The translations under genes and the position numbers were made by a program. A DNA stretch of 64,000 nt, from the NCBI RefSeq assembly GCF_023016285.1, contig NZ_CP095413.1, positions 2,046,001 to 2,110,000 on the forward strand. The letters are read 5' to 3'. This DNA comes from Muricauda sp. SCSIO 64092. Its GTDB lineage: Bacteria; Bacteroidota; Bacteroidia; Flavobacteriales; Flavobacteriaceae. The notes below the pieces were generated by a model. The model was not told where the DNA came from, did no database searches, and saw only the letters and a program-made list of their open reading frames with translations. Below, in pieces: positions 5,893 through 56,791 of the stretch. Within the stretch, counting starts at the first letter, position 1; each line of letters opens with the position of its first letter.

Positions 5893-5937
5893 AATTTTAA
5901 AGGATTTTAGTTAACTACTAGTTGATTATTGATCCAT

Positions 5938-5971: not shown

Positions 5972-6023
5972 ATCTGTGGTTTTTTTGGCATTTATTTCAT
6001 GGGCAATGGTATTTTAAGTTTGT

Positions 6024-7190: not shown

Positions 7191-7287
7191 AAACCAATTT
7201 CATGGATTAATAGGTATGCCCTTTTATAGTAGGACACAGAATATCATAAAAAGGGTGATGTTAAAATTGAAAAAAAACAAAAATAGG

Positions 7288-7809: not shown

Positions 7810-7818
7810 GTAGGTCAA

Positions 7819-8331
7819 TTCAAAATCTAAAGCGGACTATCCCCAAAATATGACGAACAAACAATGTTGTGCGATTAAAATTCCTCAACGGAGCATCCTG
7901 GAATTTCAAATCCGCATAAGGAAAGATACAAAATAATATTTTTCACCTGGAACGTAAACCTTCATTCCTATGGCTCAGGGTAATTTCATTTAAAGCATTT
8001 TGAACCGGTCGAAAATTTATGTCCTTTTTAAAGGTATGCGAAGTGCTTGATAGACCAAAATTTCAACCATGTGCTGCGCAAACCACCCCACTGCCCAGGC
8101 AGGAAGGGACATAAGAAAACTGTTGACAAATTCCCAAATAGGTTCTAAAAAAGTCAAGTAGGTTTTTTGGTTCCTTTTTAGTTTTCTATATGTTCAATAT
8201 GATTAAACTTTAGCAAGTGTGCCAAGTTTGTTCTCGAAAGACTTACGCTTTTTAATTAAAACTCCACCAGCCCCTATGCCATATAAATTTACTACATTGA
8301 ATTAAAAAATAATCTACTAAACATATAATGT
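7819..8331. other. Gene-free AT-rich gap
   Basis: About 510 bp with no convincing coding frame on either strand. It should hold the promoter of the sigma factor (leftward) and of the thioredoxin-like lipoprotein (rightward), but no TAnnTTTG element with good -33 spacing was found. A TATTTTG variant lies on the minus strand about 40 bp upstream of the sigma gene. Confidence 0.5.
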
Positions 8332-9417: not shown

Positions 9418-10202
9418 CGTCCATGTTTTTATTTGTTCCAAAACACTTTATCCTATTAAAAATAAGGTTTCTGTCCGCTTTACCTAAAAAACATATGGCC
9501 AAAAACCAGATGGAACCTTCAAAATGAAAAAAAGTAAATTTTTGCGGGAAAGACAATAACCAAAACTAAAAAATCATTTTGTTTAATTCAATCACTATCC
9601 AAAGGTGGGTAAGTCTTCAGTGCGGACTAAGGAGAGAATATCCCAATATCGTAATCTATCTTGTAACTTGTTAATTTAAAAGATATTGACCGGGAATTTA
9701 CCAATAAAAAAAGAAATTGGGGATTATATCTGTTACAAAGCCATCGGCAATTTCAGTTCTGCCCCATCTGGCTTAAATGTAACAAGATATAATTCAATAA
9801 TTTGCTGCTATGTTTCCATTTTATAAAGCACCTCCACGAGGGGTAAAAAGCGCCCCTTCAATCCTTTTCAATTGGGCAACGTGAATCGATTTGGAACACG
9901 TTTAAGGAAAATAGCAATGATTCCCGGTAGTACCCATACCGCCTTCTCAAAAACATGTAGAAAAACTTTGATACTATTTCTTCACACCATTCCTTCCTTT
10001 AAAACAGTGGATTTACCTATGATATGTCTTTGATGTTCATATGCACATGTATATTTTAACGGTCCGTAGCTGCTCCCAGGTGTTTTTAAAAATCAATATT
10101 ATTTTTTCAAATACATTGATATTGAATGTGTTACAAGAAAGACAAGTATCATTTCCCTTGTAATTTTTCGCTATTTTAGAGCGCAAACCATAACCCGTAT
10201 CC
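9418..10202. other. Long gene-free gap with repeated short motifs
   Basis: About 785 bp without a plausible gene. It contains several copies of a TGTTACAAGA-like motif (minus-strand sense near 9660, plus-strand near 9733, 9779 and 10130) and a small GAGGGG...CCCCTTC hairpin near 9838-9860. The promoter of the downstream sugar symporter must lie at its right end. Nothing else is recognised. Confidence 0.45.
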
Positions 10203-11810: not shown

Positions 11811-11831
11811 TACGCTTATACTGAATTAGAA

Positions 11832-42422: not shown

Positions 42423-43208
42423 TTACAACTCCCTTACCCAAATATTTCGATAACTGACCCTACTATTGTCCTGATGGTCCTGCAATTTAATTGGTGCTGG
42501 TCCATGGGCAGTGTTTTTGGGCCAACCGATATATTCCGTTGTACCTTCAATCTCCACATGGTCCTGTATCAAAACCCCATTATGCAGTACGGTTATGGTC
42601 CCGGATTGGGTTTTGGTGCCGGATTCATCAAACTCGGGGGCATGAAAAAGGATATCATAGGTATTCCATTCCCCAGAGGGCCTGGAGGCCATGGCCAAAG
42701 GAACGGATTGCTTGTAAATGGAGCCTACCTGGCCATTGACATAGGTTTTGTTGTCATTATTGTCCAACACCTGCACTTCATACCTGCTTTGCAAAAATAC
42801 CCCGCTGTTGCCCCTATTCTGGCCTTCGCCTTGAATCTCCGCTGGGGATTTCCACTCGATGTGCAACTGCACGCTCCCAAAATTTCGTTTGGTTTGGATG
42901 TCCCCGGCTTTGTCCTTAACCGTCATGCTGCCATCTTTGTTCAAATGCCACTGTACCGCCGTACTGTCCCGTGCACTGACCCATTCATCAAAATCACTTC
43001 CATTGAACAGTATAATGGCATCACTGGGGATACCATTTTCACCCACGGTAACTTTGGGGGGCACCGGCTCATAAAACTCCGTAGCTTCCGGTTTGGTGGG
43101 TTCTTCCTGAACGGTTTCCTCCCCATTGATCTTCGAATTTTCGACAGTAACTTTTTGTTGGCACGAAACCAATACGGACAACAATACAATGGGTACAAAA
43201 AACTTCAT
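42423..43208 (-). CDS. DUF1080 (3-keto-disaccharide hydrolase family) lipoprotein
   Basis: A periplasmic or surface lipoprotein of 261 residues from ATG 43206-43208, with lipobox LVSC (Cys15 or so). After an acidic linker it has one DUF1080 jelly-roll (IILFNGSDFDEWVS, RGNSGVFLQSRYEVQVLDN, GEWNTYDILFHAP, SRVSYRNIWVREL). Pfam names this family 3-keto-disaccharide hydrolase, acting after glycoside 3-dehydrogenases. Last of three genes with a second DUF1080 and a sugar isomerase; only 1 nt separates it from the second DUF1080. Confidence 0.93.
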   Translation of the reverse strand: MKFFVPIVLLSVLVSCQQKVTVENSKINGEETVQEEPTKPEATEFYEPVPPKVTVGENGIPSDAIILFNGSDFDEWVSARDSTAVQWHLNKDGSMTVKDKAGDIQTKRNFGSVQLHIEWKSPAEIQGEGQNRGNSGVFLQSRYEVQVLDNNDNKTYVNGQVGSIYKQSVPLAMASRPSGEWNTYDILFHAPEFDESGTKTQSGTITVLHNGVLIQDHVEIEGTTEYIGWPKNTAHGPAPIKLQDHQDNSRVSYRNIWVREL

Positions 43209-43209
43209 G

Positions 43210-43854
43210 TTATAACACTTTAATTTTAATATTTCTGTAAGCAACGATATCCCCATGATCTTGTAGTCCTATCTTCCCCGTTCGGTAGGTTCCAAAACCT
43301 TCCCAATCGGCAAATTTTGAATTGGCGACCATAGCGTCCCAGGCAGCACCATGCACTGGAAATTCAATAATCTTTATCGTATTAAGAAGTACCCTTCCCC
43401 CATTGCTTTTATGGTCTACGGTCAATTCTACCGTGTTCCATTCGCCTGCTGGTTTTACCGCTTTTTGGGATGGGGCGACCAGATCATAAAGGGCACCTGC
43501 CTGGTGCGTGGTTCCATTTTTGGCATCCGGATGGCGGTCATCGTCCAACACTTGGATTTCCGGTCCGGTTTCGTAGGGTTGCACAAATCTTTTGTCCTCA
43601 AAAACACCCCAAAAAATACCACTGTTGCCCCCTTCGGAAACCTTCCATTCCAAAGACAGTACAAAGTTGGTGTATTCCTTGTCCGTGACTATATTGTACC
43701 CCCGTCCGTCAGGTCTGTTTTCAGGGGGATAAAACACCATTGCGCCTTGTTCCAATTCCCATGGTTCGGTAACCGCCCCACCATTGTAAAAATGCCATCC
43801 ATCAAAGGAGGTACCATCAAATAGCACTTCCCATTCATCGTGTTCCTTTGTCAC
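43210..43854 (-). CDS. DUF1080 (3-keto-disaccharide hydrolase family) protein, no signal
   Basis: A second DUF1080 protein of 214 residues, without signal peptide, so probably cytoplasmic. Motifs: WEVLFDGTSFDGWHFYNGG, GGNSGIFWGVFED, GPEIQVLDDDRHPD, GEWNTVELTVDH, VAYRNIKIKVL. It overlaps the isomerase gene by 4 bp upstream. The pairing of an exported and a cytoplasmic DUF1080 protein suggests two steps, or two compartments, for 3-keto sugar cleavage; this is inferred. Confidence 0.93.
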   Translation of the reverse strand: MTKEHDEWEVLFDGTSFDGWHFYNGGAVTEPWELEQGAMVFYPPENRPDGRGYNIVTDKEYTNFVLSLEWKVSEGGNSGIFWGVFEDKRFVQPYETGPEIQVLDDDRHPDAKNGTTHQAGALYDLVAPSQKAVKPAGEWNTVELTVDHKSNGGRVLLNTIKIIEFPVHGAAWDAMVANSKFADWEGFGTYRTGKIGLQDHGDIVAYRNIKIKVL

Positions 43855-44903
43855 AGCCCTAAAATTTTCCTTAGTTGTTCCTTATCAATCGCCGCACCTG
43901 CAAAATCATCAAAGGTTTTTTGGGTTGCTTCAATAATATGATCGGCGATAAACTTGGCCCCTTCCCTTGCCCCTTGTTCTGGACTCTTGATACAACATTC
44001 CCATTCCATTACAGCCCAGACATCACATCCGTACTGCGTCAGTTTGGAAAAAATGCTTTTAAAATCAATTTGTCCATCCCCGAGCGAACGATAGCGTCCA
44101 GCCCGGTCCCCCCAATCGTTATAGCCTCCAAAGGCCCCTTTTTTTCCTGTTGGGTTAAATTCGGAATCCTTTACGTGAAAGGATTTAATAAATTCATGAT
44201 AATGGTCTATGTAGGTAATGTAATCCAGTTGCTGCAGTACAAAATGGCTGGGGTCATACAAAATATTCACCCGCTTGTGGTTGCCCGTTGCTGCCAAAAA
44301 ACGCTCAAAAGTATCCCCATCGTGCAAATCCTCTCCCGGATGTATTTCATAGCAAACATCAACACCTTCTTCATCAAAATGGTTTAGGATGGGCATCCAA
44401 CGGTTGGCGAGTTCCTCAAAACCCATTTCCACCAATCCGGGTGGTCGCTGGGGCCAGGGATGGGCGGTATGCCACAACAAGGCTCCTGAAAAGGTGGCAT
44501 GTGCCTTTATGCCCAATCTCCTACTTGCCGTGGCCGCCTTTTTAACGGTTTCCACGGCCCAGGCAGTACGCTCTTTTGGTTTTCCCTTTAATGCGTCGGG
44601 AGCAAAATTATCAAACATAATGTCATAGGCAGGGTGTACGGCCACAAGCTGTCCCTGTAGGTGTGTGGACAATTCGGTAATCTCCAGACCGTAGGAATTG
44701 ATTTTGCCCTTAAGTTCATCACAATAGTCCTGGGACGCTGCCGCTTTATCCAAATCAATCAGGAATTTTTCCCATGTAGGGATTTGAATGCCCTTATAGC
44801 CCAAACCGGATGCCCATTCGCATAGCCCTTCCAAGGAATTGAAAGGTGGGTTACTGTCCACAAATTGAGCCAAAAAGACGGCAGGTCCTTTTATCGTCTT
44901 CAT
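43851..44903 (-). CDS. Sugar phosphate isomerase/epimerase (AP-endonuclease-2 TIM barrel)
   Basis: A 350-residue TIM-barrel metalloenzyme of the xylose isomerase-like/IolE family, cytoplasmic. Metal-site segments include CYEIHPGED, NILYDPSHF, FHVKDSEF and AVMEWECC. With DUF1080 genes in the operon it probably isomerises a keto-sugar intermediate; exact substrate unknown. First gene of the minus-strand operon, diverging from the GMC oxidoreductase gene with a large inverted repeat between them. Confidence 0.92.
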   Translation of the reverse strand: MKTIKGPAVFLAQFVDSNPPFNSLEGLCEWASGLGYKGIQIPTWEKFLIDLDKAAASQDYCDELKGKINSYGLEITELSTHLQGQLVAVHPAYDIMFDNFAPDALKGKPKERTAWAVETVKKAATASRRLGIKAHATFSGALLWHTAHPWPQRPPGLVEMGFEELANRWMPILNHFDEEGVDVCYEIHPGEDLHDGDTFERFLAATGNHKRVNILYDPSHFVLQQLDYITYIDHYHEFIKSFHVKDSEFNPTGKKGAFGGYNDWGDRAGRYRSLGDGQIDFKSIFSKLTQYGCDVWAVMEWECCIKSPEQGAREGAKFIADHIIEATQKTFDDFAGAAIDKEQLRKILGL

Positions 44904-44938
44904 ATCATATATTTATTGGTTAACTATCAGATTATTCC

Positions 44939-44999
44939 GCTATATTTAGTCAGATGGATACGTTTCGTCCTTCCGTCTGCGGATTACTATAAATATAGC
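44939..44999. promoter_or_regulatory. Large two-step inverted repeat in a divergent promoter region
   Basis: Outer arms GCTATATTTA (44939-44948) and TAAATATAGC (44990-44999) are a perfect 10-bp inverted repeat. Inner arms CAGATGG and CCGTCTG (44951-44957, 44974-44980) pair with one mismatch. Each outer arm also contains TATATTTA, one mismatch from the -7 consensus, on opposite strands. The site is placed to control both the isomerase/DUF1080 operon and the GMC gene. Confidence 0.6.
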
Positions 45000-45015
45000 G
45001 ATTCCGACACTAAAA

Positions 45016-46731
45016 ATGCATTTCATGGCAAATCCAAATACCGTCTATGACGCCATTGTTGTAGGTACTGGAATTACCGGTGGCTGGGCCGCAAAGGAAC
45101 TTTGTGAAAATGGCCTAAAAACCTTGGTTTTGGAACGTGGTCGAATGGTAAAGCACGTTCAGGATTATCCCACCATGCACGATGACCCGTGGGATTACAA
45201 GTACCATGGGGAACTGGATAGGGAACAAAAAAAGGAATATCCCAAACAATTACGGGTGGGGTGGGCACCAAGGGAGGATGTAAAACATTTTTTTGTCAAC
45301 GACCTGGAGCATCCCTACCAGGAAACCAAACGCTTTGATTGGATACGGGGTTACCATGTTGGGGGGCGTTCATTGACATGGGGGCGTCAAAGCTATCGAT
45401 GGAGCGACATGGATTTTGAGGCGAACCTCAAGGAAGGTATTGCTGTGGATTGGCCGGTGCGTTACAAGGATATTGCACCCTGGTACGATACCGTTGAGCA
45501 ATATATTGGGGTCAGTGGTGAACATCTTGGACTGAAACAATTGCCCGATGGCAAATTCCATCCACCAATGGAATTGAACTGTGTTGAAAAAGAACTACAA
45601 CAATCCTTGGCAGAACAATTTGATGATGGGCGGGTATTGACCATTGGACGTACGGCAAACATTACGGACAAAAACGCACAAATTGAGGGTAGGGGCCCAT
45701 GCCAATACCGCAATCGGTGCTGGAGGGGGTGCCCTTTTGGCGGGTATTTCAGTAGCAATTCATCTACCTTGCCCGCCGCGGAACGAACAGGCAACCTTAC
45801 GCTTCGGGCCAATTCCATTGTCCATGAAGTACTTTATGATGAGACCACCAAAAAGGCCATCGGGGTAAAGGTAATCGATACGGAAACCCATGAAAAAATG
45901 GAGTTTAAAGGAAAACTTATCTTTCTATGTGCTTCTGCAATGGCCTCCGTGGGAATCTTATGGCAATCCAAGTCCAAAACCTTCCCCAATGGAATGGGGA
46001 ACAACCATGACCAATTGGGGCGTAATGTTATGGATCACCACTATCAACTGGGGGCTTCCGCCAAAGTGGATGGTCACCTGGATAAATACTATAAAGGGCG
46101 AAGGCCCAATGGATTTTATATTCCCCGTTTTGTGAATTTGGACGAAAAGACCAAACGAACAACGTTTTTAAGGGGTTTTGGCTATCAAGGGGGTGCAAGT
46201 CGTCAAAATTGGTCGGAGATGGTTGCTGAAATGGGCTATGGAAAAGCCTTGAAAGAGGCCATTCTAAAACCAGGAGGTTGGCAAATTGGGATGACCGGGT
46301 TTGGGGAAATGTTACCGTACCATGATAACCGGGTTTCCCTAAGCAAGGACCAAAAAGACCAATGGGGACTGCCACAGTTGGATTTTGATGTGGAATTCAA
46401 ACAAAATGAATACCGTATGCGGGAAACCATTAAGGAAGAAGCCGCCAAAATGTTACGATCGGCCGGTTTTAGGGACGTCCATGTGTACGAAAATGACACA
46501 GGCCCCGGATTGGGAATCCATGAGATGGGGGGCGCCCGTATGGGATGGAACCCAAGAACCTCCGTCACCAACAAACACAATCAATTGCACGATGTCCCCA
46601 ACGTTTATGTAACGGATGGGGCCTTTATGACTTCGGCAAGTTGTGTGAACCCTTCATTAACGTATATGGCCTTTACCGCCAGGGCAGCAAATCATGCTGC
46701 GGAACAGCTCAAACTTGGTAAATTTTCTTAA
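45016..46731 (+). CDS. GMC-family FAD oxidoreductase (glycoside dehydrogenase type), copy 1
   Basis: A 571-residue glucose-methanol-choline oxidoreductase. The FAD motif VVGTGITGGWAAKEL is near residue 15. A Cys motif C-x5-C-x3-C (Cys229, 235, 239; CQYRNRCWRGCPFG) resembles the segment binding an Fe-S cluster in FAD glucose dehydrogenases. The C-terminal active-site region has GIHEMGGARMG (His502) and CVNPSLTYMAF. It lacks its own signal peptide; relatives are exported by a Tat subunit, but none is adjacent here. Closely similar to the second copy at 54418. MANPNT three codons downstream is an alternative start. Probably oxidises glycosides at C3 (inferred). Confidence 0.93.
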   Translation: MHFMANPNTVYDAIVVGTGITGGWAAKELCENGLKTLVLERGRMVKHVQDYPTMHDDPWDYKYHGELDREQKKEYPKQLRVGWAPREDVKHFFVNDLEHPYQETKRFDWIRGYHVGGRSLTWGRQSYRWSDMDFEANLKEGIAVDWPVRYKDIAPWYDTVEQYIGVSGEHLGLKQLPDGKFHPPMELNCVEKELQQSLAEQFDDGRVLTIGRTANITDKNAQIEGRGPCQYRNRCWRGCPFGGYFSSNSSTLPAAERTGNLTLRANSIVHEVLYDETTKKAIGVKVIDTETHEKMEFKGKLIFLCASAMASVGILWQSKSKTFPNGMGNNHDQLGRNVMDHHYQLGASAKVDGHLDKYYKGRRPNGFYIPRFVNLDEKTKRTTFLRGFGYQGGASRQNWSEMVAEMGYGKALKEAILKPGGWQIGMTGFGEMLPYHDNRVSLSKDQKDQWGLPQLDFDVEFKQNEYRMRETIKEEAAKMLRSAGFRDVHVYENDTGPGLGIHEMGGARMGWNPRTSVTNKHNQLHDVPNVYVTDGAFMTSASCVNPSLTYMAFTARAANHAAEQLKLGKFS

Positions 46732-46743
46732 TATTGTCTTTGT

Positions 46744-47208
46744 ATGGAAAATGCTTCTGCACGCAGTCTTTGGGGTGATTTTTTGGATGCCCATTTAGAG
46801 TTTGCCAATGAGCCCGCACCACAGGTAGGTTATTTTGGAGATAATGAAAAAGACGCCAATACCCTGGTAGGTTTGGTCCTAAAAGACATCAAAAGGGCCA
46901 CTTCACACTCCTTATTGGGACTACAACAACGAAATGAACCCTTACCCAAAATTGGCGACTTTTTTGTGGTTACCGACTGGAAGGGAAAAGCAAAATGCAT
47001 TATCCGAACTACCTCGGTAAAATTGATTCCCTACTTTGCCATACATGCAGAGCATGCCCGTTTGGAGGGAGAGGGCGATAAGAGTTTGGAATACTGGAAA
47101 AAGGTCCATTGGGAATACTATACCCGTGAACTTGCCACTTTTGGGAAAAAACCACTGGAAAGTATGATTGTCGTTTTTGAACGCTTTGAAAAGGTGTTTG
47201 ACCGATAG
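46744..47208 (+). CDS. ASCH-domain protein
   Basis: A 154-residue cytoplasmic ASCH-domain protein, a PUA-like fold thought to bind RNA or act on nucleosides. Visible: ARSLWGDFLDAHLEFANEP, LPKIGDFFVVTDWKGKAKCIIRTTSV, KSLEYWKKVHWEYYTREL. It follows the GMC gene by 12 nt and is probably read from the same transcript, although no functional link is obvious. Confidence 0.88.
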   Translation: MENASARSLWGDFLDAHLEFANEPAPQVGYFGDNEKDANTLVGLVLKDIKRATSHSLLGLQQRNEPLPKIGDFFVVTDWKGKAKCIIRTTSVKLIPYFAIHAEHARLEGEGDKSLEYWKKVHWEYYTRELATFGKKPLESMIVVFERFEKVFDR

Positions 47209-47230
47209 ATCGGAAGCTTCCAAAGCGTAA

Positions 47231-47929
47231 TCACCCGCCCAACAAATCTCTAATCTTATTTCGATAGGTCTGGCCTATGGGAATTTTGTGCCTATCGATG
47301 AAAACTTGGTTCCCTTGAATTTGTTCAATTTTGTCCAAAGACACTATAAATGATTTATGGACCCGTATAAACCTGCCTTTTGGAAGTAAATCTTCCAGGG
47401 TTGATATTTTCTGATGGCTTACTTTCATTTCCGCTTTAAAAAAGACCTTTACATAATTGCCGTAAGCCTCAACGAATAAAATGTCTTGTAGGTGGATTTG
47501 ATGGTGCGCTTTATCCCCCCTTAGAAAAATACTGCCGAGTTCTTCACTAACAGGATTGGTGCGCTTAATTTCTTCTTTTTGGGGGCCATTGACCTTATTA
47601 ATGGCCTTTAAAAAACGTACCAAGGAAAATGGTTTCAGCAGATAGTCCAAAATGTCCAATTCGTATCCTTCCAAAGCATATTCCTTATACGCTGAGGTCA
47701 CGATGATCCCTGGAGGATTGGAAACTGTCTTCAACCATTCAAAACCCGTCATTTTGGGCATGTTGATATCCAAAAAAACCAAATCCACTTTTTGCTGCGA
47801 CAGTATTTCGGAGGCTTGAAATACGTTGTAGGCATTGCCCGCTTTTTGCAGGTATGGTAATTCCTCGCAATAGCCCTCAATTATTCGGTGGGCAATGGGT
47901 TCGTCATCTATGATCACATATCTTGTCAT
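47231..47929 (-). CDS. LytTR-family response regulator
   Basis: A 232-residue response regulator: receiver domain (phosphoacceptor Asp54 in VFLDINMP, KPFSLVRFLKAI for the Lys) and a C-terminal LytTR DNA-binding domain (ILFVEAYGNYVKVFF, FIRVHKSFIVSLDKIEQI). It overlaps the histidine kinase gene by 4 bp, so the two form one two-component system. Target genes unknown; the neighbouring sugar-oxidation genes are candidates only by position. Confidence 0.95.
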   Translation of the reverse strand: MTRYVIIDDEPIAHRIIEGYCEELPYLQKAGNAYNVFQASEILSQQKVDLVFLDINMPKMTGFEWLKTVSNPPGIIVTSAYKEYALEGYELDILDYLLKPFSLVRFLKAINKVNGPQKEEIKRTNPVSEELGSIFLRGDKAHHQIHLQDILFVEAYGNYVKVFFKAEMKVSHQKISTLEDLLPKGRFIRVHKSFIVSLDKIEQIQGNQVFIDRHKIPIGQTYRNKIRDLLGG

Positions 47930-49056
47930 CCGGCAGCAGTTATATTCAACAATAAGCTTAGATGTACCGCGTACATGGTTTCCGTTTTGTCCATCGATAA
48001 TTCGTACCTATTGGGATAAGCATGTTCCAACCGTTTTTTAAGATTATCCAAACCTGTTCCATTCTTAGTGTTGGATGCATCGGTTTCATAATTGTTGGCA
48101 ATCTTAAACACGACTCGATTCTGTATGGTTCTCAAACTTAGATGGATGTAGGCATTCTCCGTTAGGGGTTCCACCCCATGCTTGAATGCATTTTCCAGTA
48201 AATTGATAAAAAGTAAGGGAGCTACCTGAATGTCCGTATCCACCTCATGGTCAAATTGGATATCCACATTTTTCTGATAGCGGATTTTATGCAGCGCAAT
48301 ATAGTTTTCCAAAAAATTGACCTCATCCCTAATGCTGACTTTATCTTCCTTCCCCATATCAATGGTATAGCGCATCATATCGGATAGCTTCAGCACCACA
48401 TCCGGGGCTTGGGGGGACTTCTCTATGATCAATCCGTATAAATTGTTGAGCGTGTTAAAGAAGAAATGTGGGTTTACCTGGCTTTGTAGCAAAGTGAGTT
48501 CGGCCTTTGTCCTGTCCGCCTTTAAATTTTGTACCCAACGCCATTGCTCATATATCCACAGCGCCACAAACACCGGAATTGGCAGCAGCATATATTTCGC
48601 AAAGTTTGCACGATCATCCCCTCCATAATCGGTTGCTGAAATGAAACTGAAAAAATAATAGGCTATAATCATACCATATGCCAAAAGAATGCCCATCCAA
48701 TATTTCCTAAAAAACTGTGGAAGAATCAGATAGGCCACCGCCAGCCAAAACAAGATGATAAATGGAACGGTAATGGGATTCTCACTGATATGAAGAAAGT
48801 GTTCCGCCAGTGCAGCTATAACCAATAAACCGATGACTCCAAGTACTTGATACATAGGATACCTGATCAATAAAAAATAAAAGATGTACAAGGTTATCGA
48901 TAGGCCCAGAACGTTGATTAGCACAAAAAGGGGTTTCCCCATACCGCCTGAATCCAAAATCACATATCCCAGTTGAACCAGTAAAAGTGTTAAACCGGCA
49001 GTAATCAATCCGCTTAAGAGAAGAATCTTATAGTCTTTTGGAAGAAACCATTGCAT
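47926..49056 (-). CDS. LytS-type sensor histidine kinase
   Basis: A membrane sensor kinase from ATG 49054-49056 with 376 residues. Six or so membrane helices fill residues 10-170, with no large periplasmic domain. The kinase core carries QVNPHFFFNTLNN (phosphoacceptor His197) and the ATP-binding NLLENAFKHG and NGTGLDNLKKRL. It belongs with the LytTR regulator downstream. An ATG 12 codons upstream would lie above the -7 promoter box and is rejected. Confidence 0.94.
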   Translation of the reverse strand: MQWFLPKDYKILLLSGLITAGLTLLLVQLGYVILDSGGMGKPLFVLINVLGLSITLYIFYFLLIRYPMYQVLGVIGLLVIAALAEHFLHISENPITVPFIILFWLAVAYLILPQFFRKYWMGILLAYGMIIAYYFFSFISATDYGGDDRANFAKYMLLPIPVFVALWIYEQWRWVQNLKADRTKAELTLLQSQVNPHFFFNTLNNLYGLIIEKSPQAPDVVLKLSDMMRYTIDMGKEDKVSIRDEVNFLENYIALHKIRYQKNVDIQFDHEVDTDIQVAPLLFINLLENAFKHGVEPLTENAYIHLSLRTIQNRVVFKIANNYETDASNTKNGTGLDNLKKRLEHAYPNRYELSMDKTETMYAVHLSLLLNITAAG

Positions 49057-49060
49057 AAAA

Positions 49061-49068
49061 CAAAAATA
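49061..49068 (-). promoter_or_regulatory. -7 element just before the sensor kinase start
   Basis: TATTTTTG on the minus strand matches the consensus exactly and ends only 4 nt before the ATG. Transcription would begin at or very near the start codon, giving a leaderless message. No good -33 TTTG is visible. Confidence 0.4.
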
Positions 49069-49264
49069 GTAATCACCATGACCGGGAACCATCTATTTTG
49101 ACCAACACAAGGCTTTTGTTGTCAAACCCTTTCATTTTCCTGTCCAATTCAGTTCGTCCATATTTCGGTCTCATGTAAAACACCATTCCTTAGGTTCATC
49201 CTATTTAATTGCCATCAAAGAATGGGAAAATTATGTTTGGAATGTATTTTCAAAAACCACCATC

Positions 49265-50269
49265 ATGAAAACAGTCAAGAAAATTTTAAAGTGGATTGGA
49301 ATCTCTTTAGGGTCCCTTTTGTTGCTATTGATACTCACAGGGTTGACGTCAAGACTTCTGACTCCCGAACCTAAACCGCCGGGTCAACTTGTGGATATTG
49401 GTAGTTTTAAACTTCATATCAACGCTGTGGGTGAAAGAAACCACAAACCGACCTTGGTCATTGAATCGGGGGCAGGAGCACCCAGTGAATACTATTATTG
49501 GTTGGGGGAATTGCTCAAAGACAGTATTCGGGTAGTTCGCTATGATCGCGCGGGGATAGGTTATAGTGAGTTTAGTAATCGACCCAGAAATCCAGAAACC
49601 ATAGCCGAGGAATTGCACCGGTTGTTGGAGAATTCAGGTGAAAAACCACCCTATATTCTAGCGGGACATTCCTATGGTGGCCATTACATTCGCGTCTTTA
49701 AACAAATGTACCCAAACGAGGTTGTTGGAATGGCTTTTTTGGACGCTCCCCATCCTGACGAAAGTGAGCGGTTAAAACTTCCCCACTCTCCGAGCTACTT
49801 GAGACCTTTGTACTATTTAGGTGCCGTTGCCGGCGATTTGGGTATCTTGAATTTACACGGTCGTTTCGCAAAAAGACCCTTGGCTTGGGCACCTGGCCTT
49901 CCTAAGGAGGTCATTGAAGGGTACAGGGACTACTGGGTGGATGGAAACTATTTGTGGGGTTATATTAAGGAAGAAAAAAAACATAAGGATTTGGTAGACC
50001 TATCCAGAACTATCAGCAAATTCGATAGCCTACCCATTCGGGTGTTTGCAGGCACGAATCTGAATGAACCCTTACTTCGAAAAATGGGCTTTGATCCGGA
50101 TTTCCTGCGAACCGAACGGGCCAAAATGCAAAAAGAGATGGCGAGTCGCTCCAGTAACGGCAATGTTTTTTTTCTAAAAGGGGGCCATATTACCATTTTT
50201 TCCCTTAAGGAAAGTGCCCATATCATCTGCGAGGAAATCCTTGCTTTTATAAGCGACCTGGGGTATTGA
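49265..50269 (+). CDS. Alpha/beta hydrolase, membrane-anchored
   Basis: A 334-residue alpha/beta hydrolase. A membrane anchor or uncleaved signal covers about 7-28 (KWIGISLGSLLLLLILTGL), followed by the hydrolase core: ESGAGAPSEYYYW (oxyanion region), VVRYDRAGIGYSE and the nucleophile Ser136 in GHSYGG. The His is likely in KGGHITIF near the C-terminus. Probably an esterase or peptidase of the envelope; the substrate is unknown. It stands alone and converges with the Gfo/Idh/MocA gene. Confidence 0.9.
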   Translation: MKTVKKILKWIGISLGSLLLLLILTGLTSRLLTPEPKPPGQLVDIGSFKLHINAVGERNHKPTLVIESGAGAPSEYYYWLGELLKDSIRVVRYDRAGIGYSEFSNRPRNPETIAEELHRLLENSGEKPPYILAGHSYGGHYIRVFKQMYPNEVVGMAFLDAPHPDESERLKLPHSPSYLRPLYYLGAVAGDLGILNLHGRFAKRPLAWAPGLPKEVIEGYRDYWVDGNYLWGYIKEEKKHKDLVDLSRTISKFDSLPIRVFAGTNLNEPLLRKMGFDPDFLRTERAKMQKEMASRSSNGNVFFLKGGHITIFSLKESAHIICEEILAFISDLGY

Positions 50270-50294
50270 ATGGATTACAAAATTTCACTCGAAT

Positions 50295-50325
50295 CAACAA
50301 TGGCCGCCATAAGCGGCCATTGTTG
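50295..50325. terminator. Perfect 13-bp hairpin between convergent genes
   Basis: CAACAATGGCCGC, a 5-nt loop (CATAA) and GCGGCCATTGTTG are perfectly complementary. It lies between the alpha/beta hydrolase and the convergent oxidoreductase and should terminate both, although the T-tracts are weak. Confidence 0.65.
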
Positions 50326-50345
50326 TATTTGAGACTAAGGATATG

Positions 50346-51482
50346 CTAATCCAAATCTATCCAGACATTTCCCTGTTTGTGGGAATGTACCGTACTTTCT
50401 ATAAAATTCATCCCCCGGACACCGTCTTCCATGGTTGGGAATTCCCCATCATCATAGGCTTCACCACGTATCGCCTTAGCAGCACCCAAATAGATATTGG
50501 CCATGGAGTCAAATATCCCTTCTGGGTGTCCTGGCGGTAATTTGGTGCCATCCAATGACAATTTTGAGTTATACGCATGTCCGGGTTTATATACTTGAAG
50601 TGGTTTCCCTTCAACAAAATAATACAGGTAATTGGGATTCTCCTGTTCCCAAACAAATCCTCCTTTTTCACCGTAAATACGAATGGCCAGTCCATTTTCT
50701 TCCCCTGTCGCCACTTGGCTGGCGCGTATGACCCCTTTGACATGTTTGTCCAATCGGACCAAAACAGTACCATCCACATCCATTTGGTTATCATCATACA
50801 TGTAGTTGAAATCACACAGGAGCGACTTCACCTTAAGGCCTGTGGTAAACTCCAAAAGGTTAAAAGCATGTACCCCTATATCCCCCATACAGGAACTGAT
50901 GCCCGCTTTTTTGGGATCCAACCGCCATACGGCCGACCGTTGTTCCTCATTGTGAATAATGGGATTGATCCACCCTTGATAGTATCTGGCATCTACTTTA
51001 TGGATTTTCCCCAATGCGCCATCCTTTATCATCTGCCGCATTTGACGAACCATGGGATAACCGGTATACGTATGGGTGAGGGCAAATACCTTTCCTGATT
51101 TTTGATGGGCTTCCTCAAGTGCTTTGGCCTCTGCATAATCCATGGTCATGGGTTTTTCACAGATGACATGAAATCCATTGTCCAATAGTTTCTTTGCCAT
51201 GGGAAAGTGCAGGAAATTTGGGGTCTGGACAGAACACACCTGCATCCGTTCCTCTTCCGGAAGCTTACCTTCTTCCTCGATCAACGTATCAAAATCCTTA
51301 TAAATACGATTGAGGGGAATGTCCAATTCCTTGGCAAAATCCATGCTCTTGCCATGATCGGGGTTGAAAACGGCCCCAACTATTTCATAGTTGTCATTGA
51401 TATAGGCCGCAACACGATGTAATACTCCTATTAGGGAATCTCCCCCTCCTCCTAAAATTCCAAGTCTAATTTTTTTTGGCAT
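50346..51482 (-). CDS. Gfo/Idh/MocA-family NAD(P)-dependent oxidoreductase
   Basis: A 378-residue cytoplasmic dehydrogenase acting on sugars or inositols. The Rossmann motif LGILGGGGDSLIGVLHR is at the N-terminus, the family ICEKPMTMD near residue 120, and the C-terminal domain begins with KVDARYYQGW. Homologues reduce or oxidise keto sugars. It heads no gene on its strand; the transporter gene is upstream, about 90 nt away, suggesting one sugar-use transcript. Confidence 0.94.
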   Translation of the reverse strand: MPKKIRLGILGGGGDSLIGVLHRVAAYINDNYEIVGAVFNPDHGKSMDFAKELDIPLNRIYKDFDTLIEEEGKLPEEERMQVCSVQTPNFLHFPMAKKLLDNGFHVICEKPMTMDYAEAKALEEAHQKSGKVFALTHTYTGYPMVRQMRQMIKDGALGKIHKVDARYYQGWINPIIHNEEQRSAVWRLDPKKAGISSCMGDIGVHAFNLLEFTTGLKVKSLLCDFNYMYDDNQMDVDGTVLVRLDKHVKGVIRASQVATGEENGLAIRIYGEKGGFVWEQENPNYLYYFVEGKPLQVYKPGHAYNSKLSLDGTKLPPGHPEGIFDSMANIYLGAAKAIRGEAYDDGEFPTMEDGVRGMNFIESTVHSHKQGNVWIDLD

Positions 51483-51573
51483 ATTTCTTTAATTTATACT
51501 TCTATTTCTTTTGATTTTCTTTTTGTGATATCCTATTTGACTTAATCAATAAAATAATTCCGGTCCATTTTCC

Positions 51574-52803
51574 CTATTCCCGATACGCTATTTTTTCGTT
51601 CTTAAACACTAAAACGAACAACACAAAGACAACAGCGGCAAATAACCCCGGATATATCCAAATGGTTTCCCAGGCGTGTGTTCCACTTTCCAGGAGATAG
51701 GCATCCGCAATCCTTCCGGCAATCCAAAACCCAATGAGCATCCCTACGCCATAGGTCGCCAGAGTAATCAATCCCTGGGCGGCACTTTTATACTTTTCCC
51801 CAGCCTTGGTGTCCGTATAAATTTGACCGGACACAAAAAAGAAATCATAACAAATACCGTGAAGGGCAATTCCAATGATCAACATAAAGGCGAGCCCCCC
51901 TGCATTTCCGTAGGCGAAAAGAAAGTACCGCACCACCCAGGCCAGCATTCCCGCCAAAACGGTTTTTTTAAAGCCATATTTCGTAAAGAACCAGGAGAGC
52001 AATAGCATAAAAAGCACTTCGGAAATCTGTCCAATGGTCATTTTTCCTGTTGGGTTGTTCATTCCAATTTCCGATAAAAAAGGATTTGCATTCTGATAAT
52101 AAAAGGCCAGTGGAATACAAATCAACACCGAAGAGATAAAAAATACCAGGAAGTTCCTATCCTTTAAAAGCTTTAATGCGTCCAATCCCAATAATCCGGA
52201 GAGGTTGATTTTTCCCTCTTTGGATATTCGGGGTGGGGTCTTGGGCAGCGTAAAACTAAACAGGCCCAAAATGGCCGAAGCAACACCCACCATTAAAAAA
52301 GTATTTTTCAACATTCCGGCTGCCCTGGCTTCGGAAGAATCCCAGACAAACACATAACTGATGGTCAATCCGGCAATGATCCAACCCATGGTCCCAAACA
52401 CCCTGATCGGGGAAAACTCCTTTGCAGGGTCTTTCATTTGGTTGAATGCAATTGAATTTACCAATGCCAAAGTCGGCATATAGAGGACCATATAACCCAG
52501 TACATAGGGATAGAAAACCAAAAAGTTCGGTGCCCCATACATTTGGTACATTAAAAATGCCCCAAAAAGATGGAGAACGCCCAATATCCGTTCCGCATTA
52601 AAATAGCGATCGGCAATCAAGCCAATAATAAAAGGGGCAATAATGGCACCCCAGGATTGCGTTGAAAATGCTTGGGCAATTTCACTTCCGGTAGCATTTA
52701 GGTTATCGCCTAAAAAAGTGCCCAAGGTCACGAACCACCCTCCCCAAATAAAAAATTCGAGGAACATCATAAAGGACAACTGAAATTTAACGACGGGCCT
52801 CAT
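51574..52803 (-). CDS. MFS transporter of the nucleoside:H+ symporter (NupG) type
   Basis: A 409-residue 12-helix transporter from ATG 52801-52803 (MRPVVKFQLSFMMFLEFFIWGGW, the family start). It resembles NupG/XapB nucleoside symporters, but in Bacteroidota such proteins often sit in sugar clusters. Here it lies between isomerase and Gfo/Idh/MocA genes, so a sugar or keto-sugar substrate is plausible. Confidence 0.9.
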   Translation of the reverse strand: MRPVVKFQLSFMMFLEFFIWGGWFVTLGTFLGDNLNATGSEIAQAFSTQSWGAIIAPFIIGLIADRYFNAERILGVLHLFGAFLMYQMYGAPNFLVFYPYVLGYMVLYMPTLALVNSIAFNQMKDPAKEFSPIRVFGTMGWIIAGLTISYVFVWDSSEARAAGMLKNTFLMVGVASAILGLFSFTLPKTPPRISKEGKINLSGLLGLDALKLLKDRNFLVFFISSVLICIPLAFYYQNANPFLSEIGMNNPTGKMTIGQISEVLFMLLLSWFFTKYGFKKTVLAGMLAWVVRYFLFAYGNAGGLAFMLIIGIALHGICYDFFFVSGQIYTDTKAGEKYKSAAQGLITLATYGVGMLIGFWIAGRIADAYLLESGTHAWETIWIYPGLFAAVVFVLFVLVFKNEKIAYRE

Positions 52804-52818
52804 GGAATATACTAACAA

Positions 52819-53268
52819 TCATCTTTTGTAAAAGATATAATCCAGTTGCTCCGGTACAATCTTATTTTTTCTAAAATCAGCAGCTATTTGTCCCCTATGG
52901 TGGGTAGAATGATTGATGATGTGGAACAAAACGTCCTTTAGTTCATTGGCAAATATCCTCCCTTCCGTTGTCTTGTAATCTATCCGCTTGGCAAAATCAT
53001 CCGTATTTGTGATAATTTCGAAGGTCGTTCTTTGGTTCTCATAGTGGATCTCTTCCCAATTCTTTATGTCATGGACCTGCCAAACCCCATATTCCCAATC
53101 TTCATCCAATACCCTTTTATTCCAAATATGATGGGTGTTCAAAATATGACTGAACAGCCCTTGGCTTTTTTCAGGGAACTTCTTTAGGGCAACGGCTCGT
53201 TCAATGAGCTTTCTGTTGCAATAGAAGTTGTAATCAAAGAGTTGATGGAACAATGAGCGCATTGGCAA
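52819..53268 (-). CDS. DinB-family protein
   Basis: A 149-residue four-helix DinB-type protein with potential metal ligands (ILNTHHIWNK near 47, INHSTHHRGQ near 122). Members include thiol transferases; no activity can be assigned. MRSLFHQL two codons in is an alternative start. It lies between the isomerase and transporter genes with gaps of 7 and about 15 nt, within the sugar operon. Confidence 0.88.
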   Translation of the reverse strand: MPMRSLFHQLFDYNFYCNRKLIERAVALKKFPEKSQGLFSHILNTHHIWNKRVLDEDWEYGVWQVHDIKNWEEIHYENQRTTFEIITNTDDFAKRIDYKTTEGRIFANELKDVLFHIINHSTHHRGQIAADFRKNKIVPEQLDYIFYKR

Positions 53269-53275
53269 ACAAGGT

Positions 53276-54274
53276 TTATGACATCGCTTTACCTGCCTTG
53301 ATCAGCAAATCGCGGGTGGCAATGATCCCTTCTTCCTCACTAAGCCCTCTCCCTTCATATTCCACTCCTATGTATCCTTTGTACCCCGCATCCTTGACCA
53401 ATTGGAGCACTTTGGAATAATCCGTATGCTTCTCATTGCCATTTTCATCAAAATCATGGGATTTGGCACTTACCGCCTTGGCAAAAGGCATGAGCTCTGC
53501 CATTCCCTGGTACCTGTCGTATTCTTCCAAACATTTGGTCCAATCGTCCTTGTCCCGTTCAATGCAAAAATTGCCAAAATCGGGCAGGGTACCACAATTC
53601 TCCATGTTTACTTGTTCCATAACTTTGGCCAAAAGGGCTCCGTTTGAAGAAAGTCCACCATGGTTTTCAACGATAATATTGATGTTTTTGGGTTGGGCAT
53701 AGGTCGCCAATTTGGTCAGCCCATCAATTGAGGCGTTCATCCATTCTTCTTGTTCCTTACTTCCACTAAGGTTGACCCTAATGGAATGACATCCCATGGC
53801 TTGGGCAGCATCCACCCATTTATAATGGTTCTCCACTGCCGCAATTCGCTCTGCTTCATCGGCCGCAGCCAGGTTGCCTTGGCCATCAATCATAATGAGC
53901 AGGTTTTCCAAACCGTGCTTTTTGGCTTCCGCATTGCTTTTTTCCACGAAAGCGTTCATGGCGGCTTCAGAAAAATCCTCTTTTTCCAGTTCCGGATAGT
54001 ACAATCCGCTGACATATTCAAGACCGGTAAACCCCCATGCCTTTGCCTTTTCTGCAAAGGTGTACGGATCTACGCCGTCTTCCCTAATCATTTTATTGAT
54101 GGACCATTGCGCCAGGGAAAGTTTAAAAAACAGCTCTGGGGATTCCATCGTGGCTTTCTCTTCCGCCATAGTGATTTCTGTTTCTTTCTTTGCTTGCTTA
54201 CAGGCAAAGGAACCGAATAGGAGCACTCCTGTTCCCATGGTTGCGGATTGATTGATAAATTTTCTTCTTTTCAT
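53276..54274 (-). CDS. Exported sugar isomerase/epimerase (hydroxypyruvate isomerase-like TIM barrel)
   Basis: A 332-residue TIM-barrel enzyme with an N-terminal RR-type signal (MKRRKFINQSATMGTGVLLF) and possible lipobox at Cys25, so it is exported, probably by Tat, and perhaps membrane-anchored. Metal-site segments: IIVENHGGLSSN, TLPDFGNFC, AKSHDFDE, IGVEYEGRGLS. Related exported isomerases accompany GMC dehydrogenases in Bacteroidota. It diverges from the second GMC gene and heads the minus-strand cluster with DinB, MFS and Gfo/Idh/MocA genes. Confidence 0.92.
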   Translation of the reverse strand: MKRRKFINQSATMGTGVLLFGSFACKQAKKETEITMAEEKATMESPELFFKLSLAQWSINKMIREDGVDPYTFAEKAKAWGFTGLEYVSGLYYPELEKEDFSEAAMNAFVEKSNAEAKKHGLENLLIMIDGQGNLAAADEAERIAAVENHYKWVDAAQAMGCHSIRVNLSGSKEQEEWMNASIDGLTKLATYAQPKNINIIVENHGGLSSNGALLAKVMEQVNMENCGTLPDFGNFCIERDKDDWTKCLEEYDRYQGMAELMPFAKAVSAKSHDFDENGNEKHTDYSKVLQLVKDAGYKGYIGVEYEGRGLSEEEGIIATRDLLIKAGKAMS

Positions 54275-54417
54275 TGATTCGGTTTGAATTTCTTAGTGTT
54301 ACGGAATTGACGTTTACTACAACGTTATAGTGTGGATTTCTTAATTACCCTAAGGTTTAAATGTAGAAAATTAATTTAATATTTGATACATTTAGGAATT
54401 AAACAATGGCATTTTAA

Positions 54418-56136
54418 ATGAGTAAATTCTATTACAACGAGGAACAGGAATCCTATGATGCAATTGTGGTCGGAACCGGCATAAGTGGTGGATGGGCGGC
54501 AAAGGAATTATGCGGGAACGGCTTAAAGACCTTGGTTCTGGAACGTGGGAGGATGGTGAAACACCGCGATGACTATAAAACGGCAAAAATGGACCCTTGG
54601 GATTTCCCCAATGGCGGCCAACCTACACAGGAAGACCTGAAAAAACAGGGAAAACAAAACCGTACCGGTTATACGACCAGAGCAGATGCCAAACACTGGT
54701 TTGTAAATGACCTGGACCATCCTTATAACGAGACCAGGCGCTTTGATTGGATGCGCGGTTACCATGTTGGTGGACGTTCCTTAATGTGGGGTCGGCAGAG
54801 TTACCGATGGAGCGACATTGATTTTGAAGCAAACAAAAAGGAGGGAATTGCCGTTGATTGGCCATTGCGTTATAAGGACATTGCCCCTTGGTATGCCCAT
54901 GTTGAACGCTACGTAGGCATCTCGGGAGAAGCCTTGGGCCTTCCCCAGCTTCCCGACAGCGTTTTTGAACCCATGATGGAGCTGAACTGCGTGGAACAAC
55001 ATGTCCGCGAAAAGATTGCGGAACACTTTAATGGCCGGGTAATGACCGCTGGGCGTGTGGCACATATTAACAGTGACAAACGTTTTGAGGGAAATGGAAG
55101 AATACGTTGCCAATTTAGAAACCGTTGTATTAGGGGATGTCCTTTCGGCGCCTATTTCAGTAGCCTATCCTCTACCTTACCAGCGGCCGAAGCAACCGGT
55201 AATATGACATTAAGGCCGGATTCCATTGTGCATCAGGTCATCTATGACCCCAATACCAAAAAAGCCACCGGAGTAAAGGTTATTGACAGGATTACCAAGG
55301 AGGAATTTGAATTTAAGGCAAAGGTCATTTTCCTATGTGCATCGGCCATTGCATCCACAGCTATTTTGATGCAGTCCAAATCCGACAGGTTTCCGGATGG
55401 TTTGGGAAATGATTCCGATCAGTTGGGAAGGAACATTATGGACCACCATTTGGGTGTAGGTGCTGCAGGGAAATTTGACGGTTTTGAGGACAACTATTAC
55501 AAAGGAAGAAAACCTGCAGGTATTTACGTTCCCAGGTTCCGAAACATTGGGGGAGCTTCCAATACGGATAAGTTTCTTAGGGGTTATGGATACCAAGGTG
55601 GGGCCAGTAGGGGGAACTGGGAAGACATCATCGCAGAAGTGTCCCATGGCAAGGAATTGAAGGATGCCATCCTAAAACCTGGAGGTTGGACTTTTGGTAT
55701 GGGAGGATTTGGGGAAGTATTGCCCTATGAGGACAACCGCATGACCATGGATTATGACAAACTGGATCAATGGGGTTTGCCCACGGTGACCTTTGATGCC
55801 GATTTCAAGGAAAATGAATGGAAAATGCGCGAGGATATGAAGGAACAGGCGGTTGAAATGCTTACCAAGGCAGGGCTGCGTGATGTGGAACCGTTCGATG
55901 ACCCTGGAGGGCTGGGTCTTGGAATCCATGAAATGGGAACTGCACGGATGGGACGTGATCCAAAAACTTCGGTCCTAAACGCATACAATCAAGTACATGC
56001 GTGTAAAAATGTTTATGTAACGGATGGGGCATTTATGACTTCTGCCGCATGCGTGAACCCATCTTTGACCTATATGGCTTTTTCGGCCAGGGCCGCCAAC
56101 CATGCCGCCCAGGAACTAAAAAAAGGAACTATTTGA
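54418..56136 (+). CDS. GMC-family FAD oxidoreductase (glycoside dehydrogenase type), copy 2
   Basis: A 572-residue paralogue of the GMC enzyme at 45016, with the same layout: VVGTGISGGWAAKEL, GRSLMWGRQSYRW, Cys231/237/241 in CQFRNRCIRGCPFG, and GIHEMGTARMG (His504) followed by CVNPSLTYMAF. It has no signal; the next gene, 1 nt downstream, encodes the Tat-type small subunit that would carry it to the periplasm. It is probably the catalytic subunit of a glucoside 3-dehydrogenase; gluconate or sorbitol dehydrogenase activity is an alternative. Confidence 0.94.
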   Translation: MSKFYYNEEQESYDAIVVGTGISGGWAAKELCGNGLKTLVLERGRMVKHRDDYKTAKMDPWDFPNGGQPTQEDLKKQGKQNRTGYTTRADAKHWFVNDLDHPYNETRRFDWMRGYHVGGRSLMWGRQSYRWSDIDFEANKKEGIAVDWPLRYKDIAPWYAHVERYVGISGEALGLPQLPDSVFEPMMELNCVEQHVREKIAEHFNGRVMTAGRVAHINSDKRFEGNGRIRCQFRNRCIRGCPFGAYFSSLSSTLPAAEATGNMTLRPDSIVHQVIYDPNTKKATGVKVIDRITKEEFEFKAKVIFLCASAIASTAILMQSKSDRFPDGLGNDSDQLGRNIMDHHLGVGAAGKFDGFEDNYYKGRKPAGIYVPRFRNIGGASNTDKFLRGYGYQGGASRGNWEDIIAEVSHGKELKDAILKPGGWTFGMGGFGEVLPYEDNRMTMDYDKLDQWGLPTVTFDADFKENEWKMREDMKEQAVEMLTKAGLRDVEPFDDPGGLGLGIHEMGTARMGRDPKTSVLNAYNQVHACKNVYVTDGAFMTSAACVNPSLTYMAFSARAANHAAQELKKGTI

Positions 56137-56137
56137 T

Positions 56138-56791
56138 ATGAAACGAAGATCGGCACTTAAAAATATGGGAATGGCATTCGGTTATGCAGCTGCCACTCCA
56201 GCCTTATTGAGCGTATTACAGTCCTGCAAGGAAAAACCATCCTATGCAGCGTGGGTCCCTTCGTTTTTTGATAGTGACCAAGGTTACGCCTTGGCCCAAA
56301 TGGTAGATGTCCTGCTTCCAAAAACAGATACCCCTTCCGCAACTGAGGTCGGTGTACACCTGTTCATTGATCGGTATGCCAACGAGGTGCTCCCCAAGGA
56401 ACAGCAGGAATTCACCAAACTCCTAATGGACAAGTTCATGGACAAATTGTTGAGTGAATCTGGCAAGGATAACCTAAGGGATATTGAGGAAGGGGATTTT
56501 GAGCCCCTTCTGAACAACTATCTTGCCAAGCGATCCGATGCCGAAGAGGAAACCCATGAAAAGGCCATTGGCGCATATATGGAGGCCAAGATGTCCGGTT
56601 CGGAAGCGGTATTGGATGACACTGTTGCTTGTTACACCTTTGCGGGAAATGTAAGGGAAATGGCTATTTGGTCCTATAAAAACTCGGAATATATTGGTGA
56701 GGAAGTTTTGGTTTATTTACCAATTCCCGGGGAGTATATTGCCTGTGGGGATGTGGATGAGCTTACACAGGGAAAGGCCTGGTCCCTTTAA
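56138..56791 (+). CDS. Gluconate 2-dehydrogenase subunit 3-like Tat-exported small subunit
   Basis: A 217-residue small subunit of GMC dehydrogenases. It has a twin-arginine signal (MKRRSALKNMG) and a Cys at the end of the hydrophobic part (LQSC), then the subunit-3 domain (YALAQMVDVLLPKTDTPSATEVGVHLFIDRY). In related enzymes it exports the GMC subunit by hitchhiking. It begins 1 nt after the GMC stop. No cytochrome c electron acceptor is found nearby. Confidence 0.93.
   Translation: MKRRSALKNMGMAFGYAAATPALLSVLQSCKEKPSYAAWVPSFFDSDQGYALAQMVDVLLPKTDTPSATEVGVHLFIDRYANEVLPKEQQEFTKLLMDKFMDKLLSESGKDNLRDIEEGDFEPLLNNYLAKRSDAEEETHEKAIGAYMEAKMSGSEAVLDDTVACYTFAGNVREMAIWSYKNSEYIGEEVLVYLPIPGEYIACGDVDELTQGKAWSL

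Follow-up and report, generated by a model that had tools for sequence, protein, structure and literature searches.

A 3-keto-glycoside pathway of Bacteroides thetaiotaomicron, reportedly described by Nasseri et al. and Kastner et al. in 2024, is said to rely on DUF1080-type lyases and to proceed via a 3-keto intermediate. For the GlycDH-AtOGE-AtHYD-Gfo operon of Agrobacterium tumefaciens, a four-step route is in print (PMC10628242), and for LacABC the published genetic evidence points to a role in lactose use, together with a DUF1080 protein, with clusters that combine LacABC with DUF1080, a transporter, epimerases and a reductase in Caulobacter, Pedobacter and Indibacter and, according to the same source, also in Bacteroidetes (PMC9007349). 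Here, we analyze a stretch of 64,000 nucleotides from Muricauda sp. SCSIO 64092 (contig NZ_CP095413.1, positions 2,046,001 to 2,110,000, in the following called the window), the source genome being a single contig of 5.69 Mb. Positions 42423-56791 of the window carry a chromosomal gene cluster that, judged by its sequence, very probably serves the catabolism of glycosides by oxidation, elimination, hydration and reduction. This route is already known in other bacteria; the additions found here are two conserved genes, one for an ASCH-domain protein and one for a DinB-family protein. Eliminative cleavage of glycosides escapes surveys for glycoside hydrolases.

Composition of the cluster and comparison with described pathways

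Analysis of open reading frames and Pfam domains yielded 14 predicted genes in the interval, among them two each for PF06439 (DUF1080) proteins, PF01261 TIM barrels and GMC oxidoreductases and one each for a Gluconate_2-dh3 subunit with an RR signal, a Gfo/Idh/MocA oxidoreductase and an MFS transporter (Table 1). These nine genes all lie where a preliminary description of this DNA had placed them, and its picture of catabolism of the C3-oxidation type, with some steps assigned to exported proteins and others to the cytoplasm, is supported in outline by the sequence. Five genes had been missed, namely those for the ASCH and DinB proteins, a LytTR regulator (47231-47929), a histidine kinase (47926-49092) and an alpha/beta hydrolase (49265-50269). 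The absence of glycoside hydrolases, also stated there, is borne out by Pfam for the 14 genes of the cluster and holds locally only: a GH1 gene is located at 11832-13208 of the window, 29 kb from the cluster, and the whole genome contains eight GH3 matches.

The pathway of B. thetaiotaomicron reportedly resembles the cluster in its DUF1080-type lyases and its 3-keto intermediate; its glycoside 3-dehydrogenase is said to be of the Gfo type, whereas oxidation here is apparently performed by a GMC enzyme with an iron–sulfur cluster. The NCBIfam BT_2158 family matches the Gfo protein of the cluster weakly. The third component of LacABC is a cytochrome; unlike in LacABC, a third component is not encoded in this cluster, and a DUF1080 protein without signal is present besides the exported one. 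With the Agrobacterium operon, as far as its published description goes, the cluster shares a GMC dehydrogenase with a TAT protein, a second TIM barrel (the probable hydratase), a Gfo protein and the four-step logic; it differs in that Agrobacterium uses as its eliminase a TIM barrel whose Mn site is complete (8BVK), whereas here two DUF1080 lyase candidates occur together with a TIM barrel that lacks the presumed metal histidine, and MFS, ASCH and DinB genes are added (PMC10628242).

The predicted hydratase and the proposed pathway

Of all enzymes in the cluster, the cytoplasmic TIM barrel can be identified most securely from its sequence. It matches PDB entry 8ro4, to which the depositors gave the molecule name "2-hydroxy-3-keto-glucal hydratase", over residues 1-350 with an E value of 8.8e-162 and 541.6 bits, the second-best match in the PDB (2zds) reaches 149 bits, and matches of the IolE type are weak (TIGR04379, 60 bits at a cut-off of 290; 3cny, 41 bits). 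Glu186, His188, Asp217, His243 and Glu300 are invariant in 101 of 101 aligned sequences; the sets used for this and the following conservation counts dropped fragments below a length limit. We regard the protein as a predicted hydratase orthologue with an intact site and not as an isomerase, and the earlier proposal that sugars are isomerized by it is not supported.

Protein families, orthology and intact site of the hydratase, export signals, iron–sulfur cysteines and conserved clustering are shown by the sequences; oxidation at C3, the kind of substrate, its transport, the electron acceptor, the place of action of each lyase and the role of the reductase are what we infer, as follows. With the small subunit as its carrier through the Tat pore, GMC2 would act in the periplasm and oxidize a glycoside at the C3 hydroxyl; FAD and a 3Fe-4S cluster would relay the electrons to an acceptor whose gene lies elsewhere. 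The 3-keto-glycoside might undergo beta-elimination outside, catalyzed by the exported DUF1080 protein and perhaps also by the exported TIM barrel; alternatively, it could be imported by the MFS protein and then be subject to beta-elimination inside by the DUF1080 protein without signal. The hydratase would add water to 2-hydroxy-3-keto-glucal, and the 3-keto-glucose formed would be reduced to glucose by the Gfo/Idh/MocA protein.

Related loci were collected with the hydratase as a query, and the best 80 of 585 by hydratase identity were compared; the counts given for them describe close relatives, which belong to the Flavobacteriaceae (for example, Allomuricauda and Flagellimonas). In the 46 loci that hold seven chosen genes, a selection that favors the hydratase, median pairwise identity was 92% for the hydratase (minimum 87%), 83% for Gfo, 81% for GMC2, 70% for the exported DUF1080 protein, 65% for ASCH, 64% for the exported TIM barrel and 60% for the DUF1080 protein without signal; fewer loci were available for DinB (63%, 37 loci) and the small subunit (57%, 42 loci). 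Stronger conservation of the hydratase than of the lyase candidates (60 to 70%) would fit a fixed intermediate as opposed to varied aglycones. The conservation of the hydratase is similar to that of the ribonucleotide reductase NrdA, with medians of 91% and 89%, respectively, to the sequences of the window (NrdA in 19 loci only).

GMC oxidoreductases and the small subunit

GMC2 and the Tat-type subunit encoded next to it have the predicted architecture expected of the large and small subunits of a glycoside 3-dehydrogenase or of LacABC, the likeness to LacABC being one of architecture. Two consecutive arginines occur within the first 14 residues of 73 out of 73 small-subunit sequences. The motif C-x5-C-x3-C is present in GMC1 (45/45) and GMC2 (78/78 related sequences) and its cysteines are spaced like Cys212, Cys218 and Cys222, which bind the 3Fe-4S cluster of the FAD-glucose dehydrogenase from Burkholderia, the small subunit of which is described as a Tat hitchhiker (PMC6719666). 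An attempt to name the GMC proteins by homology failed, since the best 120 of 8000 scored matches bore generic names only.

Searches of the source genome returned four GMC but only three small-subunit matches, and GMC1 alone has no adjoining Gluconate_2-dh3 gene. This imbalance, the iron–sulfur cysteines kept in every GMC1 sequence and the pattern of occurrence of GMC1, which is absent from 20 loci that retain the ASCH and hydratase genes and doubled in five of the 80, argue for an arrangement in which the single small subunit carries GMC1 as well as GMC2 and the two act on different substrates. GMC1 may, on the other hand, remain cytoplasmic, and we consider a shared subunit nearly evenly balanced, with the scales tipping slightly against it. 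Such an arrangement is compatible with the four-step pathway proposed above.

Lyase candidates and the exported TIM barrel

Both PF06439 proteins exceed the Pfam cut-off, which indicates at the level of the family that a lyase gene is present. At least one DUF1080 gene resides beside the hydratase gene in 80 of 80 loci: 61 have both, 12 are without the exported and seven without the other protein, and one of the 12 (L072) extends just 290 bases past the hydratase gene. The matched duplicate sets that had been suggested for the cluster are not found, as GMC1 is without an adjoining subunit gene and either DUF1080 gene is absent from some relatives. For the exported protein, a start at 43208, which provides a signal peptide, is more likely than one at 43256, and MKFFVPIVLLSVLVSC can be read in its sequence. 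The nearest PDB entry is 4qhz (E 5.5e-76, residues 41-261), for which no function is stated, and there is one other weak match. The N-terminus is hydrophobic in 64 of 65 relatives, with a cysteine at positions 14-32 in 44 of the 65 only, and in the source genome the protein is probably a lipoprotein. A strict lipobox pattern matched few sequences (24/72 exported DUF1080 proteins, 11/77 exported TIM barrels and 6/73 small subunits), and therefore we claim export, lipoprotein status being probable only.

The second DUF1080 protein, which we take as cytoplasmic from its lack of a signal, is read from a GTG start that overlaps the stop of the hydratase gene by four bases, an overlap that recurs in 25 of 73 related loci. 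Its nearest PDB entries are 4jqt (E 3e-43) and 3h3l, followed by 8v31, 8rr2 and 8tda, each near 8e-32, and alignment with 8v31 revealed HPDAK and QDHGD as common motifs. The sequence set for this protein comprised 85 members, 13 of which lay outside the 80 loci (including four paralogues from the source genome); counts were repeated without these 13. The source genome contains 14 PF06439 matches in total, the cluster accounting for two. Other matches lie near 1.82, 2.17, 3.92, 4.34-4.35 and 5.36 Mb.

No function is stated for 4ovx, the nearest PDB entry of the exported TIM barrel. A profile built from 29 sequences retrieved 13 PDB matches at an E value of 0.01, many of them covering the C-terminal part only. 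Besides 4ovx, these comprise four C-glycoside deglycosylating enzymes (CGEs; 9m3b, 7exz, 7exb and 7dnn, identified as such by their names or by PMC10628242), two D-tagatose 3-epimerases and one IolI protein, the rest being generically named. The exported TIM barrel keeps E203, H205, D232 and E305, and Ser269 replaces a presumed metal histidine in 78 of 78 sequences; that the replaced histidine of strand 7 is a metal ligand is presumed from the alignment. A CGE-like protein from Croceicoccus, encoded beside DUF6379, has a histidine at the position matching Ser269. The exported TIM barrel shares E-x-H, LPD-x-G and EYEG with the Croceicoccus protein; unlike in the CGEs (PuCGE, 7EXZ, and its kin), there is no DUF6379 partner gene, serine stands in for the presumed metal histidine, and the protein is exported.

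These results also bear on the scheme put forward in the preliminary description, in which C3 oxidation is followed by one-step hydrolysis through DUF1080, import, isomerization by the xylose-isomerase-like enzymes and reduction. Pfam indeed names DUF1080 a 3-keto-disaccharide hydrolase, a lyase may hydrate its own product, which amounts to net hydrolysis (PMC13273386), and the profile of the exported TIM barrel retrieves D-tagatose 3-epimerase and IolI among its weaker hits. For that protein, the four CGE chains give better matches than the chains of epimerase and IolI; the sequence of the cytoplasmic TIM barrel marks it as a hydratase orthologue, and glucose can be reached without an isomerase step. 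These points make this scheme very unlikely in comparison with elimination followed by hydration.

Conservation and distribution

The cluster follows a conserved order in which the genes for the small subunit and GMC2 face those for the exported TIM barrel, DinB, MFS and Gfo, and those for ASCH and GMC1 face the hydratase and DUF1080 genes, followed by yicC-gmk-nadD. As far as each locus reaches, this order is kept in 79 of the 80, more than chance would account for; the exception is L078, in which ASCH and GMC1 are swapped. As the cluster is followed by yicC, gmk and nadD together in 75 of the 80 loci, we reject a genomic island and, with it, the term "island" used for the cluster before; the cluster is conserved chromosomally.

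In a second sampling with one genome per genus, independent of identity, the hydratase was found in 57 of 120 genera of the family (one weak match) and in 13 of 119 genera of the class, two of the latter belonging to the family of the source itself and one reaching 31% identity only. The annotation of this isomerase-looking gene can be corrected for the 57 genera, as it most probably hydrates the product of eliminative cleavage. In 20 distant loci, the hydratase gene has near it genes for Gfo in 19 cases (at a distance of at most 600 bases), GMC in 16, DUF1080 in 15, the small subunit in 14, MFS in 13 and a TIM barrel of the exported type in 12. Beyond the phylum, hydratase matches occur in 353 plasmid records, 333 of them covering at least 80% of the protein, and four of the records were inspected. 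A Pseudoalteromonas plasmid carries, in one run, genes annotated as Gfo, hydratase-type isomerase, MFS, DUF1080, GMC, subunit 3 and TIM barrel; a Croceicoccus plasmid combines Gfo, hydratase, subunit and GMC with a CGE-type pair and GH3; the records from Rhizobium and Azospirillum contain hydratase and Gfo with ABC transporter genes.

Several observations weigh against the proposed pathway. Among solved proteins, GMC2 comes closest to chains of fructose dehydrogenase and FAD-glucose dehydrogenase (E 2e-28 to 2e-37), and oxidation at another carbon is therefore possible. None of the 14 genes of the cluster encodes a cytochrome according to Pfam, with six Cytochrome_CBB3 matches elsewhere in the genome. 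The Gfo protein, the best PDB match of which is 3v5n (E 6e-93, function unstated), stays far under all NCBIfam cut-offs, with 91 bits of 650 as its best score and 34 bits of 750 for the glycoside 3-dehydrogenase family. An intact metal site of the AtOGE/CGE type is, judged by alignment, not retained in the exported TIM barrel, and the corresponding change in AtOGE, H189A, left less than 0.1% activity (PMC10628242); hence, we do not class the protein as a standard eliminase. Among relatives of the DUF1080 protein without signal, 10 of 72 begin with a hydrophobic stretch, and its compartment is thus not fixed. On the Pseudoalteromonas plasmid, MFS protein, small subunit and second TIM barrel were unmatched to those of the window (E 1e-3) and the GMC protein is 31% identical, so that this is a like set and not a set of orthologues. 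The nearest solved proteins of GMC2 and the weak IolE-type matches could also be taken to mean that a monosaccharide, polyol or inositol-like compound is degraded by fructose, glucose or polyol dehydrogenases and IolE/IolI-like TIM barrels, a possibility that is likewise very unlikely given the 542-bit match to 8RO4 and the DUF1080 gene or genes beside every hydratase gene.

Table 1. Features of the cluster, their positions in the window and their occurrence in the 80 related loci (many absences fall at contig or flank ends and were not separated gene by gene)
Feature	Positions	Strand	Basis	Loci (of 80)
Exported DUF1080 (PF06439) protein, candidate 3-keto-glycoside lyase	42423..43208	-	Pfam, 135 bits	68
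DUF1080 (PF06439) protein without signal, candidate 3-keto-glycoside lyase	43210..43854	-	Pfam, 157 bits	73
Predicted 2-hydroxy-3-keto-glucal hydratase orthologue, TIM barrel	43851..44903	-	PDB 8ro4, full-length match	80
GMC1, FAD oxidoreductase, predicted 3Fe-4S cysteines, no signal seen	45016..46731	+	Pfam	58
ASCH-domain protein, conserved cluster member	46744..47208	+	PF04266, 80 bits	77
Cassette: LytTR regulator (-), histidine kinase (-), alpha/beta hydrolase (+)	47231..50269	mixed		0 (LytTR in 1, at 31% identity)
Gfo/Idh/MocA oxidoreductase, candidate 3-keto-glucose reductase	50346..51482	-	Pfam	74
MFS transporter, Nuc_H_symport family, candidate importer	51574..52803	-	PF03825, 367 bits	67
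DinB-family protein, conserved cluster member	52819..53268	-	PF05163, 40 bits	69
Exported TIM barrel, RR near start, lipobox-like Cys25, eliminase-like	53276..54274	-	PDB 4ovx, E 4e-83	69
GMC2, FAD oxidoreductase, candidate large subunit of glycoside 3-dehydrogenase	54418..56136	+	Pfam	65
Gluconate_2-dh3 small subunit for GMC2, presumed Tat hitchhiker	56138..56791	+	PF13618, 71 bits	59

ASCH and DinB proteins

The ASCH and DinB proteins are two overlooked conserved partners of the cluster. ASCH matches were obtained in 20 of the 120 genera of the family, 17 of them at E values below 1e-50 and all of these 17 beside the hydratase gene; three of the 17 have a stop within the matched stretch, and the three more distant matches stem from genomes without hydratase. 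DinB matches were obtained in 29 of the 120 genera, 17 at E values below 1e-45, and DinB-type genes occur also in genomes without hydratase. By the coordinates listed, the 17 genera are the same for both proteins, and in each of them the hydratase gene shares the contig, at a distance of about 11 kb or less. As these genera probably form one clade, the conservation of ASCH and DinB would represent one event that was kept and not 17. Neither protein was matched in the 20 more distant loci. No publication linking ASCH or DinB proteins to such a cluster turned up, the literature not having been queried for that pairing.

A function of ASCH as a partner of GMC1 is not supported, as ASCH persists in the 20 loci without GMC1, and PADLOC returned no match that would identify ASCH or DinB as defense genes. 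A PDB match of DinB to a ryanodine receptor chimera (E 8e-5, 35 residues) was judged spurious. In DinB, His41, 46, 75, 116, 120 and 124 are invariant (54/54). The S-transferase-like (DinB/YfiT) superfamily is described as including metal-dependent bacillithiol transferases with three conserved histidines, and the metal triad of BstA consists of H67, H160 and H164 (PMC5815605). By order and spacing in the sequence, His41, 120 and 124 would fit the triad including its H-x3-H, an arrangement that 116 and 120 likewise provide. BshC is encoded in the source genome (E 6e-139). 3-Ketoglycals are Michael acceptors, and since 2-hydroxy-3-keto-glucal is an electrophile, a trapping role for DinB is possible. 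DinB might thus be a bacillithiol transferase that traps leaked enone 2-hydroxy-3-keto-glucal, with ASCH as a second accessory part of a pathway that, in this clade, has its own damage control; we consider this improbable, and the transferase role, suggested by the histidines of the sequence, is only a guess. If true, the cluster would encode a non-hydrolytic route for glycosides plus protection from its reactive intermediate.

Transporter, inserted cassette and neighboring genes

The MFS transporter scores 351 bits with the nucleoside permease family TIGR00889, under the cut-off of 446.

The three-gene cassette between the ASCH and Gfo genes is an insertion seen only within the genus and probably stands outside the pathway. 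Histidine kinase and alpha/beta hydrolase are encoded in none of the 80 related loci, and LytTR in one, at 31% identity. Regions flanking the histidine kinase gene were examined from five of the ten other genomes of the genus that were searched: the cassette is found in the same place in three (G241, G243 and G246) and elsewhere in two (G244 and G245), where the stretches contain no cluster genes. In the remaining five genomes, histidine kinase matches reach at most 45% identity among the matches listed. We therefore reject the view that the two-component system belonged to the cluster originally; a recent regulatory take-over by the cassette is conceivable. The gap between Gfo and ASCH holds other DNA (more than 600 bases) in seven of 74 loci. 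In the relative G246, an extra DUF1080 gene (42%) and a Gfo-like gene (27%) adjoin the inserted cassette (L121, 5578-7000).

Apart from the cluster, the window contains an ordinary hydrolytic sugar locus at 899-13208, with a SusC/SusD pair, a FecR-type gene and a gene for an MFS_2 sugar transporter that adjoins the GH1 gene.

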